Origin: Rhodothermales bacterium
Lineage (GTDB): Bacteria > Bacteroidota > Rhodothermia > Rhodothermales > Bin80
Assembly (NCBI GenBank): GCA_022822185.1
Contig: JAJECE010000011.1
Location: forward strand, 1-64,000
Direction: 5' to 3'
Length of the DNA stretch: 64,000 nt
Made by a program: the position numbers and the translations under genes. Of the stretch, positions 6,079 to 55,575 are shown one piece after another (position 1 is the stretch's first letter; every line of letters starts with the position of its first letter). The notes beneath the pieces are model-generated. The model did not search any database, was not told the origin of the DNA, and saw nothing but the letters and a program-made list of their open reading frames with translations.

Positions 6079-7035
6079 TTATTTGGTTTGGCCTTGGTAG
6101 AAAACCAAAAATTGATCACGATCAATAAGAGCCAGATCCATCGCTCTGCGGGCTATCACCACTGGACTCACTTTGAAAAATTGTTTTAACGGTTCATAAG
6201 GCACTCTTTCCTGGCTGAACTGCCTCCATTTCCTGTAAAACTCGTTCGATGGCATAAGAAACTCGGCCGCTGCTTGATTACACCAAGCTTCTATGCCCAT
6301 ACTATCTGGAAGTAGATGTTCAAAACCAGAGATTCCATCTTCCCCTAACCAGATATGCGCCAGTTCGTGAGCAAGTGTAAACATTTGAGCAGATTTTGCG
6401 TCTCTATCGTCCACGAAAATCAAGGGTGCATAGGGATCTGCAAATGCAAAGCCGCGAAATTCCTCTACCTTTATTTGGCGGTGCGTATTGTTCCCTACGA
6501 CACCATTAATCACTGCCATTACACCGATCTTCTCAATCATTCGTCGTAACTGATTCACTGCAACATACTGATTCGCCACCGTTGCCGCCCACCCATCACC
6601 TATGCCGACGATTTTTCGCATTTCACGCCCCACCATATCAGGGGGGGGGGCGGTCAGGTGGGCACTCCCTGCAAAGAAGAGCGGCTCAACCTTCTGGCCA
6701 ATAAGATATTCATGCGGCCACCTCTGCCTCCGCAGCATCGCATGAATGGTATCCATCAGATCTGGACTCATATCCCCCCTTTTTTCCTTCTCCGACACAG
6801 TTCGGAAATCGGGAATTGGAAGCCGTTCCTCTGGAGGCGAATTAAGGAAGAGATACCCAAACGGCACACGAACAGCCCGGGCGAATGCCTCAAGTTGTTT
6901 GAAGGTGGGATATGCACTACCTCGTTCCCATTCGGGCAACTTTTTAAATTTTATTACGAGGGCATCCTGCGTGATTCCTGCGCGTTCACATGCCCAGATC
7001 AGTAGTTTTGGCTTAACAGGGACGGCGCTCATCAT
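6079..7035 (-). CDS. HTH (XRE)-ImmA/IrrE family metallopeptidase
   Basis: N-terminal HTH-like region, C-terminal HELAHIWLG (HExxH) motif; adjacent to DUF4411 remnant, a common gene pair. Confidence 0.85.
   Translation of the reverse strand: MMSAVPVKPKLLIWACERAGITQDALVIKFKKLPEWERGSAYPTFKQLEAFARAVRVPFGYLFLNSPPEERLPIPDFRTVSEKEKRGDMSPDLMDTIHAMLRRQRWPHEYLIGQKVEPLFFAGSAHLTAPPPDMVGREMRKIVGIGDGWAATVANQYVAVNQLRRMIEKIGVMAVINGVVGNNTHRQIKVEEFRGFAFADPYAPLIFVDDRDAKSAQMFTLAHELAHIWLGEDGISGFEHLLPDSMGIEAWCNQAAAEFLMPSNEFYRKWRQFSQERVPYEPLKQFFKVSPVVIARRAMDLALIDRDQFLVFYQGQTK
6641..6650. repeat. Poly-G(10) tract inside the ImmA/IrrE coding region
   Basis: Ten consecutive G on the + strand (poly-C in coding sense, encoding part of APPP). 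Confidence 0.95.
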
Positions 7036-21958: not shown

Positions 21959-23288
21959 ATGCAGCGTAAGGCAACGAAGCAACCAAACGGGAGGACTTCG
22001 GCGCAAAACGCAAAGCCGTTTCCGGTGACCAAACGGCAAGTTTGGGACGCATGGAAACGTGTAAAGGCGAATCAGGGAGGGGCAGGGATTGATGACCAAA
22101 TGATCGCAGAATTTGAGGAAAATCTTGCAGACAATCTCTACAAGATCTGGAATCGGATGGCGTCGGGGAGTTATCATCCAAAGCCGGTTCGGCGGGTGAA
22201 TATTCCAAAGTCAAGCGGAGGCGTTCGACCGCTGGGGATCCCCACCGTGTCCGACCGGGTAGCACAGATGGTGGTGAAGCAGGTACTGGAACCGATCTTG
22301 GAACAGGTATTCCATTCCGATTCGTATGGATATCGGCCGAAGAAATCGGCCCACGACGCGATTCAGCGCACACGTACGCGTTGCTGGCAGCGGGCGTGGG
22401 TTCTGGACATGGATATCAAGGCATACTTTGATACAATTGACCACGACCTTTTGATGAAAGCGGTCCGCAAGCACACAGGGCAGAAGTGGGTACTCTTATA
22501 TATAGAGCGCTGGCTGAAAGCTCCGGTGGTGCATCCAGACGGACGGACGGGAAGAGGCCCGGACGGTCGGCACCCCGCAAGGTGGGGTGATCAGTCCATT
22601 ACTGGCGAATCTGTTTCTGCATTATGCATTTGATCGTTGGATGGAGCTCAACGCTCCAGCCATTCCGTTCGAGCGTTATGCGGATGACATGGTGTGCCAC
22701 TGCACGAGTGAGGCACAGGCGGAAGATCTCTGGAGGGTACTCCAGGAACGATTTTCGGCCTGTCACCTAACCTTACACCCGGATAAAACCCGGATCGTAT
22801 ACTGCAAACAAGACGGTCGGGAGGGCACATATCCTGAAGTGTCGTTTGACTTTCTGGAGTACACGTTTCGGCCTCGCATGATCAAGAGTCGCGTGGGCAG
22901 GATTTTTACTGGGTTTAATCCGGCGGTCAGTCGGAAGGCGGCGAACGCCATACGGGAGACCATTCGCAGTTGGGAGTTGGCTCGTCTGAGTCCTCTGTCC
23001 ATGGAATCTATCGCGGGCAGGATAAATGCCACGGTACGCGGATGGATTGATTACTATGGCGCATTTTTCAAATCGGAGTTGAAACGGGTGTTTCGAAGTA
23101 TAGATGAACATCTGATCCGATGGATGATGCGCAAGTACAAACACTTCCGTGGGCATTGGCACCGGTCATGGCGGTGGTTAAGGAGGATTGCTCGACAAAA
23201 TTCCGGTCTATTTGTGCACTGGGAATTCCTTTATGGTTTACCTTTATTCAATATCCAACGGCTGCATGGTAAGAGCCGTGTGAGTTGA
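21959..23288 (+). pseudogene. ltrA: Group II intron reverse transcriptase/maturase, split by a +1 frameshift near 22551
   Basis: ORF 21959-22633 (IPKSSGGVRPLGIPTVSDRVAQMVVKQVLEP, DSYGYRPKKSAHDAI, DMDIKAYFDTIDHDLL) continues in the next frame as EEARTVGTPQGGVISPLLANLFLHYAFDRWM...FERYADDMVCH... Confidence 0.92.
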
Positions 23289-44352: not shown

Positions 44353-47300
44353 ATGGAATTCAAAGACAAAGCCATAGAATATGCGGAGGATTTATGTCAT
44401 CGAAGAAGGGGTAAAGAAAATGTAGTTAACTATAATTTGCGCCGAATTCTGGAAGAGTATCAAATTGAGCATTACGCCGAACATCCCGCTGGTAATGGAC
44501 GTGTTGATATATACCTACCCAGACATCGATTAGTCATTGAGACTAAGGCACCCGGTGCAGTTTCATTAGAGAATAAATCGCAGGTTGATAGATATGTAAA
44601 ATATCTTGCTAGCGAGGAAGGACAACTACTACATTTTGACGGAAAAAATCCACCTTCATTTACTGGTGTTCTTACCGATGGTCGTACTTGGTATGCCTGG
44701 AAATATCACCATGCCCTAGGGAGAGAATTAGAGCAAATTCTTGATCGATTTACCCCAATAGACGGTCGTAGCCTCTTGAAAAATTTAATCACACTATGGC
44801 ACGGAAAAATATTTGGAAAACCAGGAATTGATGCAAATCCAAAAGAACATTTCAAGGCATGGTTAAACGAACTCAGGGATATTTATCAATATCTTTCCGG
44901 TGAAAGACGTACACACACCAACACAAAGATATCTTTGTGGCTGGACATGTTACGAACATCCAGTATGGCTCCCCAGCGTAAGTATGACCAAGAACATCTT
45001 TTCGTAGCCCACACCTTTCTGGTTGCGCTGGCAAGAGGGGTGATTCACGCAGTTGTTAAGCCGAATGATGAGCCTAATTCTAAGGATTTGCTCGGCGATG
45101 GATTCATTGCTTGGGTTTTAGACTCAACCAAAGGCAAGAAATGGGCGGATGATTTTCTGCAGGAGATAAATAAGTGGGACTGGACACGCAGAACTGGTGA
45201 TGTGCTCCGTCCACTATATGAGGCATTCGTAGAAGAGAAGGATCGAAAATCCTTTGGTGAATTCTATACACCTGATTGGCTAGCACAGTTTATGATTGAA
45301 GAGGTTTTAGATGATGATTGGTGTGCAGCATCCATTACATCTGCATTGCGATCTGAGACGGACTCCAGAGCACTTGACGGCGTAGGGGTACTGGACCCCG
45401 CCTGTGGTTCTGGTACATTCCTCTATTTTGCCGCACAGAGGCTTATGAAATCACATGCAATGGCGAAGCAAGGCCTCACCGCCGCTGAAAAGTCAAATGT
45501 GGTTGCTAAACTGGTAAATGGCATTGATGTACATCCTGTGGCTGCAGAAATGGCAAGGGCCACGATCATGCGTGCACTAAGATGGGAACCGGGTGAAGGT
45601 ATCCGTTCTCTCAGGATTTATGAGGGAGATTCATTACAGTTGCGTAGTCATGAGGATTCCCTATTCACACCTGGTCCAGATGAAGTAGTATTTGAGTCAC
45701 CACAAGGGGATAAGATACTGTTGCCCCATGCCTTTCTGTACAGAACAGACTTTGCTAAATCCGTTCGTCGTCTCGTTGAAACCGCCGTTCAGGGTAATGA
45801 TTGCCCAGATGATATCATTGCTTCCAGCCAACCTGAAGACAGGGATAAAATTCGGGAAGCGCACAAAAGTCTCGTTAAAATTATTCATAGAGAAGGTAAT
45901 TCTGTGTGGACATGGTATATAGTCAATATGTCTGGCCCCTATCAATTGTCCCAGCGAAAGATTGATCGGATTGTGGCCAACCCCCCTTGGGTATCCATGG
46001 CTGGGATACAGGACGAAACCAGAAAACGTGCTCTTGAAGCCTTTGCGCAAAACAAATCAGGGATCTGGTCAGGTGGCAAAAACGCACCCCATTTTGATAT
46101 TGCACAGTTATTCGTGAAACGATGCAGGGAAATGTATCTTATGGAAAAAGAACATAACCCATCAGCATGGCTTGTAAAACTAGCCGCACTTACCTCAGGT
46201 GGATGGCAGAAATTTAGGGAGAAGCACGGAAATATTCTTAAGCAATCGATAGATCTTATGGCAGCTCAGCCTTTCGGAGGTGGGGATGCTCGGCGATGTT
46301 GCGTATTGCTTGAATGTCGAGAGGCTAGATCAATCTCTGAAATCTGCCACACCCCTAAGGCCATTGCTAAGTTGGTCACTCCACGCCGTAGACCAGAACC
46401 GCATATGACTTGGCAAGATGCCTCTTTACTACTTTCGTTTGAGGCCGCTCCCAGACCATTCCCTGTTTCTCCTTCCGAATATTATAAGAAACGCTTCCGA
46501 CAGGGTGCTACGATCACGCCAATGGTGCTTACACTTGTAGATAAAGTAATAGACGAAACGGAAAACCAATGTACTATTACAACTGTTGTATCTCAGAAAT
46601 CTCCATGGAACGAATTGCCACCCCAGAAAGGGACTTTTCAGAAGACATGGATAAGACGTACCCTTAAATCACAACGTCTCCTACCGTTCATAGTTCACCC
46701 AGAATTGCATCAGACAATTGTCCCTACAGGATCGAATGGCTTATATATACATTCCACACCAAGTAGAAAATCTCAATCATGGCACTCGCTTGATGAAATA
46801 TATAGAGAGTACCGAGGAAGGGGAATATCGACTCCAAAGACATTGATTGAACAAATCGATTATCAAAAGAAAATTACACATCAACTAAACAATAATAGTG
46901 ATCAATTAACTAAAGTTGTCTACCCCGCTTCTGCGGACATTATGCGGGCTGCCCGAATGATTCATAATAAAGCCATTGTTGATTCAAGCGTATACTGGTA
47001 TATCGCCGAAAATGAGGAGGAATCTGCCTACCTTGTTGGTGTATTGAATGCCTCCGTCTTGACCGAAGCATTTTCGGAGTCACGGACTAGTGGGAGAACA
47101 TTCCATAAAAATCCTTGGCGGAAAATACCCATTCCCAGATATAATAAGGATGATACTATACACAAGAATATTGTAAAATTAACACTACGTGCAGAAGACT
47201 TAGCAGCAACCGTTCTCGCCAACCGCGAAAAAATGGGGGGGGGGCAAGTTGGGGTTTCCAGGCGTATCAGGGAATTGCTGGATCACGAGGGTGTTATGGA

Positions 47301-47361
47301 CGAGATCAATAAACTAATCCGTGTACTCCTGCCCGATCACACGCATCGTCAGTCATGGTAA
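44353..47361 (+). CDS. Type IIG/IIL-like fused nuclease-N6-adenine methyltransferase
   Basis: N-terminal nuclease-like GRVDIYLPRHRLVIETKAPG; MTase motifs VLDPACGSGTFLYFA and IVANPPWVSM; 1002 aa single polypeptide. Confidence 0.85.
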   Translation: MEFKDKAIEYAEDLCHRRRGKENVVNYNLRRILEEYQIEHYAEHPAGNGRVDIYLPRHRLVIETKAPGAVSLENKSQVDRYVKYLASEEGQLLHFDGKNPPSFTGVLTDGRTWYAWKYHHALGRELEQILDRFTPIDGRSLLKNLITLWHGKIFGKPGIDANPKEHFKAWLNELRDIYQYLSGERRTHTNTKISLWLDMLRTSSMAPQRKYDQEHLFVAHTFLVALARGVIHAVVKPNDEPNSKDLLGDGFIAWVLDSTKGKKWADDFLQEINKWDWTRRTGDVLRPLYEAFVEEKDRKSFGEFYTPDWLAQFMIEEVLDDDWCAASITSALRSETDSRALDGVGVLDPACGSGTFLYFAAQRLMKSHAMAKQGLTAAEKSNVVAKLVNGIDVHPVAAEMARATIMRALRWEPGEGIRSLRIYEGDSLQLRSHEDSLFTPGPDEVVFESPQGDKILLPHAFLYRTDFAKSVRRLVETAVQGNDCPDDIIASSQPEDRDKIREAHKSLVKIIHREGNSVWTWYIVNMSGPYQLSQRKIDRIVANPPWVSMAGIQDETRKRALEAFAQNKSGIWSGGKNAPHFDIAQLFVKRCREMYLMEKEHNPSAWLVKLAALTSGGWQKFREKHGNILKQSIDLMAAQPFGGGDARRCCVLLECREARSISEICHTPKAIAKLVTPRRRPEPHMTWQDASLLLSFEAAPRPFPVSPSEYYKKRFRQGATITPMVLTLVDKVIDETENQCTITTVVSQKSPWNELPPQKGTFQKTWIRRTLKSQRLLPFIVHPELHQTIVPTGSNGLYIHSTPSRKSQSWHSLDEIYREYRGRGISTPKTLIEQIDYQKKITHQLNNNSDQLTKVVYPASADIMRAARMIHNKAIVDSSVYWYIAENEEESAYLVGVLNASVLTEAFSESRTSGRTFHKNPWRKIPIPRYNKDDTIHKNIVKLTLRAEDLAATVLANREKMGGGQVGVSRRIRELLDHEGVMDEINKLIRVLLPDHTHRQSW
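47235..47244. repeat. Poly-G(10) tract near the 3' end of the RM-like gene
   Basis: aaaaaatggggggggggcaagtt; codons ATG GGG GGG GGG CAA. Confidence 0.95.
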
Positions 47362-53108: not shown

Positions 53109-54047
53109 TCAATTCGTCCGGTTTTCGGACGGATAGAGAATGGTGGAGATCCTTTCGGAAACTTCTTCGGCAGGCAGGCGGGGGATGACCGGGTCATGAT
53201 CGATGCCGTGCTTTTCAAGTGCAGCTTGGAATTTCACAAAACGGGTTGCAGCTTGGAGTTCAACCCATGCCACCCCTAAATCGTCCAGTTGGATCTTGTT
53301 GGTCTCGGAGAGTGTATGCCCGATGAATATATCCGACTCACGTGAGAAGGCGGAATCTGCACTTTCGGGATTCCCCTTCCCCATGAGTTTTACCTCGCAC
53401 CTTAAATTCCGGTTAGTCGACTTCAGATAGAAATCTACCTCACGGTCTACCCCTTCTCCTCTAATTTTAGACGGGGTTCCTCGTCCATAATCGCATTGGA
53501 CATCAAAGAGTTTACAGAGCGTATTCATCAGAGGAACTTCTACCTGCTTACCCATAGACGACCAAGCACTACCACTGATGGAGTTCCGTTTTAGCGCTAA
53601 GGCGTTGATCACGATGAGGCTCTCGTTCAGTGTTAATTCAACAGTGACTTTATGCAAGCGGATGGACAGCATAATGTTGACATCGGCATTGGCATCCGCA
53701 AGACGCTCAATAGACTCTCGTAGATGCTCATAAGACTCATTGGATAGTTCGATAATCACTGACTTTTTACCGCTATGTGCAATGTTGTTAATAGTCTTTT
53801 TCGCGGTGCCCGCATGGTTAGCGATTTCTGGAGGTTTAAACCGGGCAGAGTCTAAGAAATGATCCCTGTACCAGTCAAGTGTGATTTCTCTGTCTGACAT
53901 TTTCGCCTTCACCACCTCCCTGAAAAATTCCATACATTCTTGCATAAACCTTTCCCGGATTGCATGTACGACCAGTTTTCTGTGATCGGTACCGGATAAT
54001 AGGAATTCCACAACCCGCTTAACATCTACCTGACAATCCACACTCAT
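53109..54047 (-). CDS. CfrBI-like type II restriction endonuclease
   Basis: Overlaps the MTase gene; PD-(D/E)xK-like VDREVDFYLKSTNRNLRCEVKLMGKGNPE; family recognition from memory. Confidence 0.68.
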   Translation of the reverse strand: MSVDCQVDVKRVVEFLLSGTDHRKLVVHAIRERFMQECMEFFREVVKAKMSDREITLDWYRDHFLDSARFKPPEIANHAGTAKKTINNIAHSGKKSVIIELSNESYEHLRESIERLADANADVNIMLSIRLHKVTVELTLNESLIVINALALKRNSISGSAWSSMGKQVEVPLMNTLCKLFDVQCDYGRGTPSKIRGEGVDREVDFYLKSTNRNLRCEVKLMGKGNPESADSAFSRESDIFIGHTLSETNKIQLDDLGVAWVELQAATRFVKFQAALEKHGIDHDPVIPRLPAEEVSERISTILYPSENRTN

Positions 54048-55342
54048 CTCATGGAAGCGTTTATATCAGAAACACTCAGAAATCTAGTATGCACAGGTAC
54101 GCGTGCCCGAATCCTGGCAACATACTCCGCGGATAATTCCGTTAGAAAGAAACGTCGACCTAAACTGTGTGCCACTGCCGCCACGGTTCCACTTCCACCA
54201 AAAGGATCAAATACGAGATCACCCAACATACTGTAATACCGAATCACCCGCTCACAAAGCGCGGGTGGGAATACTGCCGAATGAGTCTTATCACTGACAG
54301 GATCAATTTCCCAAACATTGGTGGATTCGAACGCTCCAGTGACCTTGCTGGCATTTAGTACTTCGTCATCATACTGTCGCATATTCCAGTCAGGCAGACG
54401 GGGAGATTTTCTGCGATAAACCATTAGATATTCGGTCACCGTATTCGGCTTATATCCTAGTGGCTTCCGGTGCTGGAGAAACCCGCCGACCCGATTTTTG
54501 ACGGAAAAATCTGGTTTTCGCCATACAAGATCGTCGATGAAATCCCATCCATCTTTCACCAAAAAGTGATGGATATCAAATGGGATCGGATAGCGCCGTG
54601 ATGCATGTTGTCTATTCGGGCGCGGGAGGATAATCGGGGACGAGTTAACGACCAAGAACCGTCCATCCTTGGTAAGCCGGTGGACTTCCCGAAAAACATC
54701 TCTCAGGAACTCCAGGTATGCCCTGTAAGATGGATACAACGAATAATCTCGTGCATTGTAGTACGGCGGTGATGTGAAGACGAGATGGAATGCTGAGGCA
54801 CGGATATGCACTAGTATATCCCGCACATCCCCTTCTACAACCACATCCTGCAGTCGACCATCCACGGCGGCGTGATCAGGGTCATTGCCGCGTTGCCTGC
54901 CGTGCAATTCAATGGCAATATAGTCCCGTACCATCTCATTCGGGTGGCTGTCTAGGGGGGCGAGTTCGTTCAGTACCGAATCGTCTGCGCGAAAAACGAG
55001 AAGAGCCTGAATTGCCTGGATGACAATTTTTGGATCGGGCGAGGTGATCACCCGCCTAAAGAATGGAATCAACTCCTCCGACCGCTGTCTCCCCAACGAG
55101 GATACACATTCCCTTTTTACTTCCGTAGACCTGTCCGACACATAAAGCGCCGTCAATGCCTTTCGGATGCTCTCGCCGCGAAACTTCCCTAGTTGTTTGA
55201 CAGCCTCTCTGCGGACATCCCTTGATTGGTGATCAAGGAGAGACAGGAACACACTAGGATCGTAGGATTCAGGGTTGTGAATGCGCCCAATACTGCGCAG
55301 CGAGGAAAGGATCTTGCGGGCAGACGACTCTGCCCCATCCAA
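54044..55342 (-). CDS. HEAT-repeat plus DNA (cytosine-N4)-type methyltransferase
   Basis: N-terminal HEAT-like repeats (DHQSRDVRREAVKQLGKFRGESIRKALTALYVSDRSTEVKRECVSSLG); MTase motifs VFTSPPYYNARDYS (TSPPY) and DLVFDPFGGSGTVAAVAHSLGRRFFLTELS. Confidence 0.9.
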   Translation of the reverse strand: MDGAESSARKILSSLRSIGRIHNPESYDPSVFLSLLDHQSRDVRREAVKQLGKFRGESIRKALTALYVSDRSTEVKRECVSSLGRQRSEELIPFFRRVITSPDPKIVIQAIQALLVFRADDSVLNELAPLDSHPNEMVRDYIAIELHGRQRGNDPDHAAVDGRLQDVVVEGDVRDILVHIRASAFHLVFTSPPYYNARDYSLYPSYRAYLEFLRDVFREVHRLTKDGRFLVVNSSPIILPRPNRQHASRRYPIPFDIHHFLVKDGWDFIDDLVWRKPDFSVKNRVGGFLQHRKPLGYKPNTVTEYLMVYRRKSPRLPDWNMRQYDDEVLNASKVTGAFESTNVWEIDPVSDKTHSAVFPPALCERVIRYYSMLGDLVFDPFGGSGTVAAVAHSLGRRFFLTELSAEYVARIRARVPVHTRFLSVSDINASMR

Positions 55343-55345
55343 AAT

Positions 55346-55354
55346 GGGGGGGGG
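55346..55354. repeat. Poly-G(9) tract at the 5' end of the MTase gene
   Basis: aaaatgggggggggtagatgg; between upstream ATG (complement 55362-55364) and the MTase frame. Confidence 0.95.
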
Positions 55355-55575
55355 TAGATGGCATGGAGGTACTTGAAGTCCGTCTAACCGATAATATACT
55401 GCACTTTACTAGATTTTGTGCAACATCACTAATAATATCATAACAACAGACGCGCATTCTCAGCGAGGATTACTTCCCTGTGAATCAGGCCAGCGGCAAC
55501 TGGAATTGTAACATACCCCTTTGAAATAGACATCCAGCAAGTATCTTCGCCGATTCCATGTGAAACCACGCCAGA

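Follow-up and report, generated by a model that had tools for sequence, protein, structure and literature searches.

A poly-C tract before a CfrBI-type restriction-modification operon is a probable phase-variation switch and carries flanks common in its genus

The C9 run in front of a HEAT-repeat DNA methyltransferase gene probably acts as a translational phase-variation switch on the start of a restriction-modification (R-M) operon, which would be OFF as assembled. The features of the locus are listed here; all coordinates refer to the window, i.e. the whole analysed stretch of 64,000 nucleotides from a Rhodothermales bacterium.

53109-54047, minus strand: CfrBI-family restriction endonuclease gene (PF09516), whose start overlaps the stop of the methyltransferase gene in ATGA
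54044-55342, minus strand: HEAT-repeat N4/N6 DNA methyltransferase gene (PF01555, HEAT_2)
55340-55342, minus strand: TTG, the sole start-like codon already in the methyltransferase frame
55346-55354, minus strand: C9 tract, proposed switch; the assembled length is OFF, lengths 8 and 11 are ON
55341-55356, minus strand: copy of the genus-wide element TA-Cn-A-Tn, here TA-C9-ATTTT
55362-55364, minus strand: ATG in frame with the methyltransferase at C8 or C11
55393-55422, minus strand: promoter-like site, a weak match to the sigma-70-type consensus, upstream of ATG 55364
55455-55457, minus strand: further ATG, alternative start sharing the frame of ATG 55364

On the minus strand, the ATG at 55364-55362 is followed by CCATCTA, by the C9 run at 55354-55346 and by ATTTTGGATGGGG; the run lies between this ATG and the methyltransferase frame. 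At C9, the frame of ATG 55364 gives MPSTPPHFGWGRVVCPQDPFLAAQYWAHSQP and ends after 31 codons (MPSTPPHFGWGR...HSQP, then the stop). The methyltransferase frame is free of stops from the TAA at 55408-55406 down to its own stop at 54044, and 433 stop-free codons are counted from the tract end. Loss of one C or gain of two fuses ATG 55364 to the methyltransferase, MPSTPPI-LDGAESSARK (MPSTPPILDGAESSARK...). Unit changes in length shift the start in this way: the gene is ON at n = 8 or 11 and OFF at n = 9 and 10, and at C10 no ATG in the frames upstream of the tract leads into the methyltransferase. The promoter-like site scores near the chance expectation from shuffling. The earlier note had named TTG 55342 as the only start near the beginning of the methyltransferase frame, and no other ATG, GTG or TTG was found there. 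It had further read ATG 55362-55364 through the C9 run as out of frame, with one C less restoring the frame; translation at C9 indeed terminates early, and restoration holds at C11 as well.

The methyltransferase product comprises 432 aa with N-terminal HEAT repeats and an N4/N6 amino-methyltransferase domain (profile search, HEAT_2 5e-27 and PF01555 1.4e-35). The ATG of the endonuclease gene, which is intact and which the earlier note did not mention, overlaps the methyltransferase stop by 4 nt; its product covers positions 4-255 of the 257 in profile PF09516 and is thus full length (1.4e-24). A CfrBI-family endonuclease and an adjacent amino-methyltransferase are both present, as expected for a CfrBI-type system. 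Sixteen homologous loci were compared, 14 from named genomes of several phyla and one each from G002 and G005. Since the endonuclease is located close downstream of the methyltransferase in 13 of the 16, and a C/G run of at least 7 occurs near the methyltransferase start in none of the 15 with a readable start region, the R-M pair is an ordinary type II system, and the poly-C run is specific to this lineage. On the same count, inheritance of the tract along with the R-M system was rejected. A close orthologue of the methyltransferase was not found in members of the genus, where the best match reached 51%.

A constitutive methyltransferase, translated from TTG 55342 with the tract in its leader, would make the length irrelevant or let it only tune initiation. 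This codon is in frame whatever the tract length, and its product would be 7 residues shorter and always the same, a loss that could be tolerated given the varying N-terminal lengths of the homologues. Furthermore, Shine-Dalgarno-like sites precede the 46 long ORFs of the window no more often than random positions (4/46 versus 7%); because starts lacking such a site are normal in this genome, their absence is no argument against TTG 55342. However, every examined homologue with an ATG begins upstream of the TTG-equivalent position, most of them by about 20-26 residues, and an ATG can be assigned to 40 of the 46 long ORFs under a rule favouring ATG. Moreover, the element lies within the reading frame of most of its other hosts, where a change in length must shift the frame. 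TTG 55342 therefore seems a poor, though not impossible, start, and we consider constitutive expression improbable. Two homologues, L060 and L061, begin 6-8 residues upstream of the TTG-equivalent, close to the 7 residues that the ON product from ATG 55364 would add. These two starts, the predominance of ATG and the unused Shine-Dalgarno sites all speak for ATG 55364.

By itself, the C9 run is only weakly unusual: the window contains five C9 matches against 1.12 expected, and 4 of 100 shuffles reach five. Plain enrichment, being weak alone, was not taken as proof. The assembly (3.71 Mb, 132 contigs) contains 38 C/G tracts of at least 9 nucleotides, with lengths from 9 to 15, and the surroundings of all 38 were analysed. 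In the C-run orientation, ATTTT follows the tract in 21 cases, 16 of which also have TA in front. Grouping the tracts by the similarity of their flanks leaves 25 independent contexts, 9 of them with ATTTT (P = 3.7e-18), with C3-C6 runs in the same loci as background (0.23%, i.e. 0.0023). The flanking signature is far beyond chance, and its occurrence at 20 other tracts of the genome argues for a switch at the C9 run. Four tracts are located at the 5' end of, or within, PF01555 genes: the window methyltransferase, the methyltransferase-HNH gene and the two tandem mod genes listed below. The following R-M genes carry tracts; the two positions without a contig refer to the window.

Methyltransferase-HNH gene: ATG-C9; OFF, ON at C8
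Type III mod genes, two in tandem ahead of one res gene (L065, 2521-9300, G000:C79): G9 OFF and G10 ON
N6-methyltransferase/specificity gene: C12; OFF
Type ISP gene: G9; OFF
44353-47361, plus strand: type IIG-like R-M gene (N6_Mtase, MmeI_Mtase), 1002 aa, with another element copy
47235-47244, plus strand: in-frame G10 tract of this copy (AAAAAAT-G10), with about 38 codons left to the stop

Slippage at 47235-47244 would swap the C-terminus of the type IIG-like protein, and the tandem mod genes with their single res gene may constitute a specificity selector. The window holds two further C10 tracts, 47235-47244 with the signature and 6641-6650 without it; the latter is an in-frame C10 without ATTTT flank in a 318-aa regulator/peptidase-like gene (6079-7035, minus strand). 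Tracts at 5' ends without ATTTT were also observed in L093 (3578-3589), L094 (3538-3546), L087 (3552-3563), L083 (246-254) and L066 (3080-3088); the genes concerned are N6_Mtase/Methylase_S, GPP34-P450, mpaB/Lcp oxygenase-like, leucine-rich-repeat secreted and methyltransferase-HNH. In L091 (ribonucleotide-reductase-like) and L080 (transporter-like), the C/G runs encode glycine in frame and were discarded as ordinary coding sequence. A mutS gene was found in the genome; lost mismatch repair was dismissed as a cause, and slippage need not stem from it.

Further tracts of the genome lie in the signal-peptide regions of a large secreted fibronectin-III family and of a second secreted family. In the first, the element was seen in L068, L072, L073, L081, L090 and L095 of G000 and in L163-L165, L170, L172, L173 and L177 of G003; the tracts range from C7 to C16, part ON and part OFF, and make these proteins candidate phase-variable eukaryote-like surface proteins. 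In the second family (signal peptide ...KMGGGNSLLTLLALLTVL), the element has the opposite orientation (L071, L082, L085, L089 and L092 of G000; L159-L162, L167-L169, L178 and L179 of G003), and several copies with near-identical 5' ends are located at contig ends.

Across this genome and five further species of the genus, 86 element copies with n of at least 7 were collected, which fall into 34 unrelated flank clusters. Their lengths range from 7 to 16 with a peak at C9 (3 copies of 7, 7 of 8, 44 of 9, 18 of 10 and 14 of 11-16), i.e. nine C are preferred though seven were allowed. Position -2 is T in 27 of the 34 clusters and position -1 is A in 21. Positions +6 and +7, which were outside the search pattern, are T in 28 and 26 clusters, respectively; position +8 is random. 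In the window copy, as in 6 of the 34 clusters, the A is followed by T4 only. Because neither the orientation of the element with respect to the gene nor its reading frame is fixed, the constraint on it is at the DNA level. Among 395 genomes of the phylum, the sequence CCCCCCCCATTTTT was counted 18 times in this genome and 17 times in G002, against three times or fewer in every other; among these 395, many element copies are found in this genus only. A looser pattern gave 22 copies in G003 and 15 in G005, both of which are outside the 395-genome sample. In titles and abstracts of the open-access literature, a flank consensus common to many tracts was not found.

The common, sharp TA-C9-A-T6 unit may reflect selection for slippage, copying between loci or a recognised element. 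That it is a discrete element, more than a set of convergent slippery runs, is a tentative idea that we regard as doubtful; a dedicated process of the genus would then copy it into genes, or recognise it, and thereby install C9 switches in R-M and surface genes on either strand. Such an element would account for the sharp boundaries (random past +7 and before TA), for the excess of C9 over lengths 7 and 8, and for the differing positions in homologues. A simple insertion of an 18-bp block was rejected on two protein comparisons (mod and ISP), in which no clean empty site was seen; for mod, the difference at this point between homologues that carry the element and those that lack it is about one residue. 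Reverse transcriptase was likewise rejected as the source: of three fragmentary RT sites, none is near an element copy. One of these is a broken gene with a frame change and stops at window positions 22202-22856 (plus strand); similar fragments are at G000:C22:84456 and C16:12767-13265. Five IMG/VR matches to the exact element were in unrelated contexts and were taken as chance. In a genome of the same genus, very long C runs are clustered within about 260 bp (G006:C3:10119-10379); these may be tracts of a different kind or result from misassembly.

Overall, the hosts of the element are R-M enzymes of types II, IIG, III and ISP and secreted FN3, Calx-beta and Ig-like proteins. In the relatives it was found in FN3, Calx-beta and autotransporter-like proteins as well as in the following genes.

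Type III mod genes: L160, L184; other site, L182
Other PF01555 genes: L166, L185, L210
Type ISP genes: L180, L196, L204; other site, L207
N6-methyltransferase genes: L181, L194, L201
Eco57I/MmeI-like gene: L216
Helicase-domain gene: L187

Tract length varies between relatives, and the variation seen concerns orthologues and paralogues of other element-bearing genes, not the window methyltransferase. For example, at one site of the ISP gene four species have G9 OFF, G9 ON, G10 ON and G11 OFF. Close copies of about 91% identity differ as C16 versus C11, with zero indels in 600 bp of flanks, and as C14 versus C10; further close copies with few or no flank indels show C8 versus C9, C9 versus C8 and C10 versus C9. 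The closest orthologous mod pair (about 96% identity) has the same length, G9 in both. The occurrence of R-M genes in both states, G9 OFF and G10 ON for mod and the four species for ISP, supports a switch. The geometry of a phase-variable start that the earlier note had deduced is well supported, both by the frame arithmetic and by a genus-wide element that varies among relatives.

These comparisons also bear on the idea that C9 arose by a mistake in sequencing or assembly, or that the gene is a decaying pseudogene fixed OFF. The data for this locus come from one draft assembly of 132 contigs, in which the methyltransferase is out of frame from ATG 55364. Against an error or decay stand the frame, otherwise intact over its 433 codons, the intact partner gene, and the recurrence of the element with conserved flanks, OFF and ON, in separately assembled genomes of the genus. 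Differences in length together with mixed frames fit hypermutable tracts and not frozen pseudogenes; we judge an error or a decaying gene extremely improbable. Programmed transcriptional or translational slippage, by which some in-frame protein would arise at every genomic length and the tract would be an expression device, could draw on the finding that several element genes are out of frame yet otherwise intact. Runs such as A6 and G9/C9 are generally slippery for polymerases. Programmed slippage is nevertheless very improbable, as genomic tract lengths differ widely among copies (7-16) and both orientations are used, yielding transcripts with G9 or C9 that are unequally slippery.

For the preferred reading, a genomic switch at the C9 run, the following mechanism can be proposed. 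In living cells, slipped-strand mispairing would alter the number of C residues in the tract. With n = 8 or 11, ribosomes starting at ATG 55364 (or 55457) would enter the HEAT-methyltransferase, whereas with n = 9, the assembled state, or 10 they would stop early. The endonuclease is probably translationally coupled to the methyltransferase, because its gene overlaps the methyltransferase stop by 4 nt, and the frameshift would then probably silence the whole type II R-M operon. An OFF state that removes methyltransferase and endonuclease jointly would avoid self-cutting, and what the cells would likely gain is a bet-hedging strategy in the restriction of phage or foreign DNA. The epigenetic phasevarion proposed in the earlier note, a methylation-controlled regulon, would be possible; as the cognate endonuclease starts in the ATGA overlap, switching of the complete R-M operon is no less likely than control of other genes through methylation.

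Phase variation driven by repeats is known best from host-adapted pathogens. For the lineage studied here, an RpoA comparison and the lack of Shine-Dalgarno sites suggest Bacteroidota/Rhodothermota. No report of phase variation in Rhodothermales was found in the open-access literature, mostly at the level of abstracts. In this lineage, one shared DNA element seems to place most types of R-M gene and a set of eukaryote-like secreted proteins under a contingency system. If this is true, its defence repertoire flips stochastically, affecting phage resistance and gene exchange; the conserved flanks make determinants of slippage or the installation of tracts testable.

Homopolymers are described as general frameshift devices (PMC2831843), and homopolymer phase variation of R-M genes is already well known in Campylobacter and Helicobacter. 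In Campylobacter jejuni, the type IIG R-M gene cj0031c is reported to be phase-variable through a poly-G tract, with ON and OFF states altering methylation and phage restriction (PMC4889913). As here, the homopolymer lies within an R-M gene; in contrast, cj0031c encodes a single bifunctional protein, whereas the window encodes a type II methyltransferase and its endonuclease in two distinct genes that overlap; the flank element found genome-wide is a further difference (PMC4889913). CfrBI, a type II system whose expression is described as methylation-controlled (Beletskaya et al. 2000, cited in PMC3874152), likewise has a CfrBI-family endonuclease beside an amino-methyltransferase; here, however, the genes are in tandem with an ATGA overlap, the methyltransferase carries HEAT repeats, and a tract is the putative control (PMC3874152). 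In Helicobacter pylori, many R-M genes of several types are homopolymer-switched in one genome (PMC4209511, PMC3936762). Here, too, tracts occur in R-M genes of several types within one genome, but the phylum is another one and the abstracts mention no common flank element. Late homopolymer tracts of Helicobacter canadensis alter the C-terminus (PMC2823697), which resembles the expected effect of the G10 tract in the type IIG-like gene of the window. Compared to H. canadensis, early and late tracts here have one bounded flank element in common (PMC2823697).
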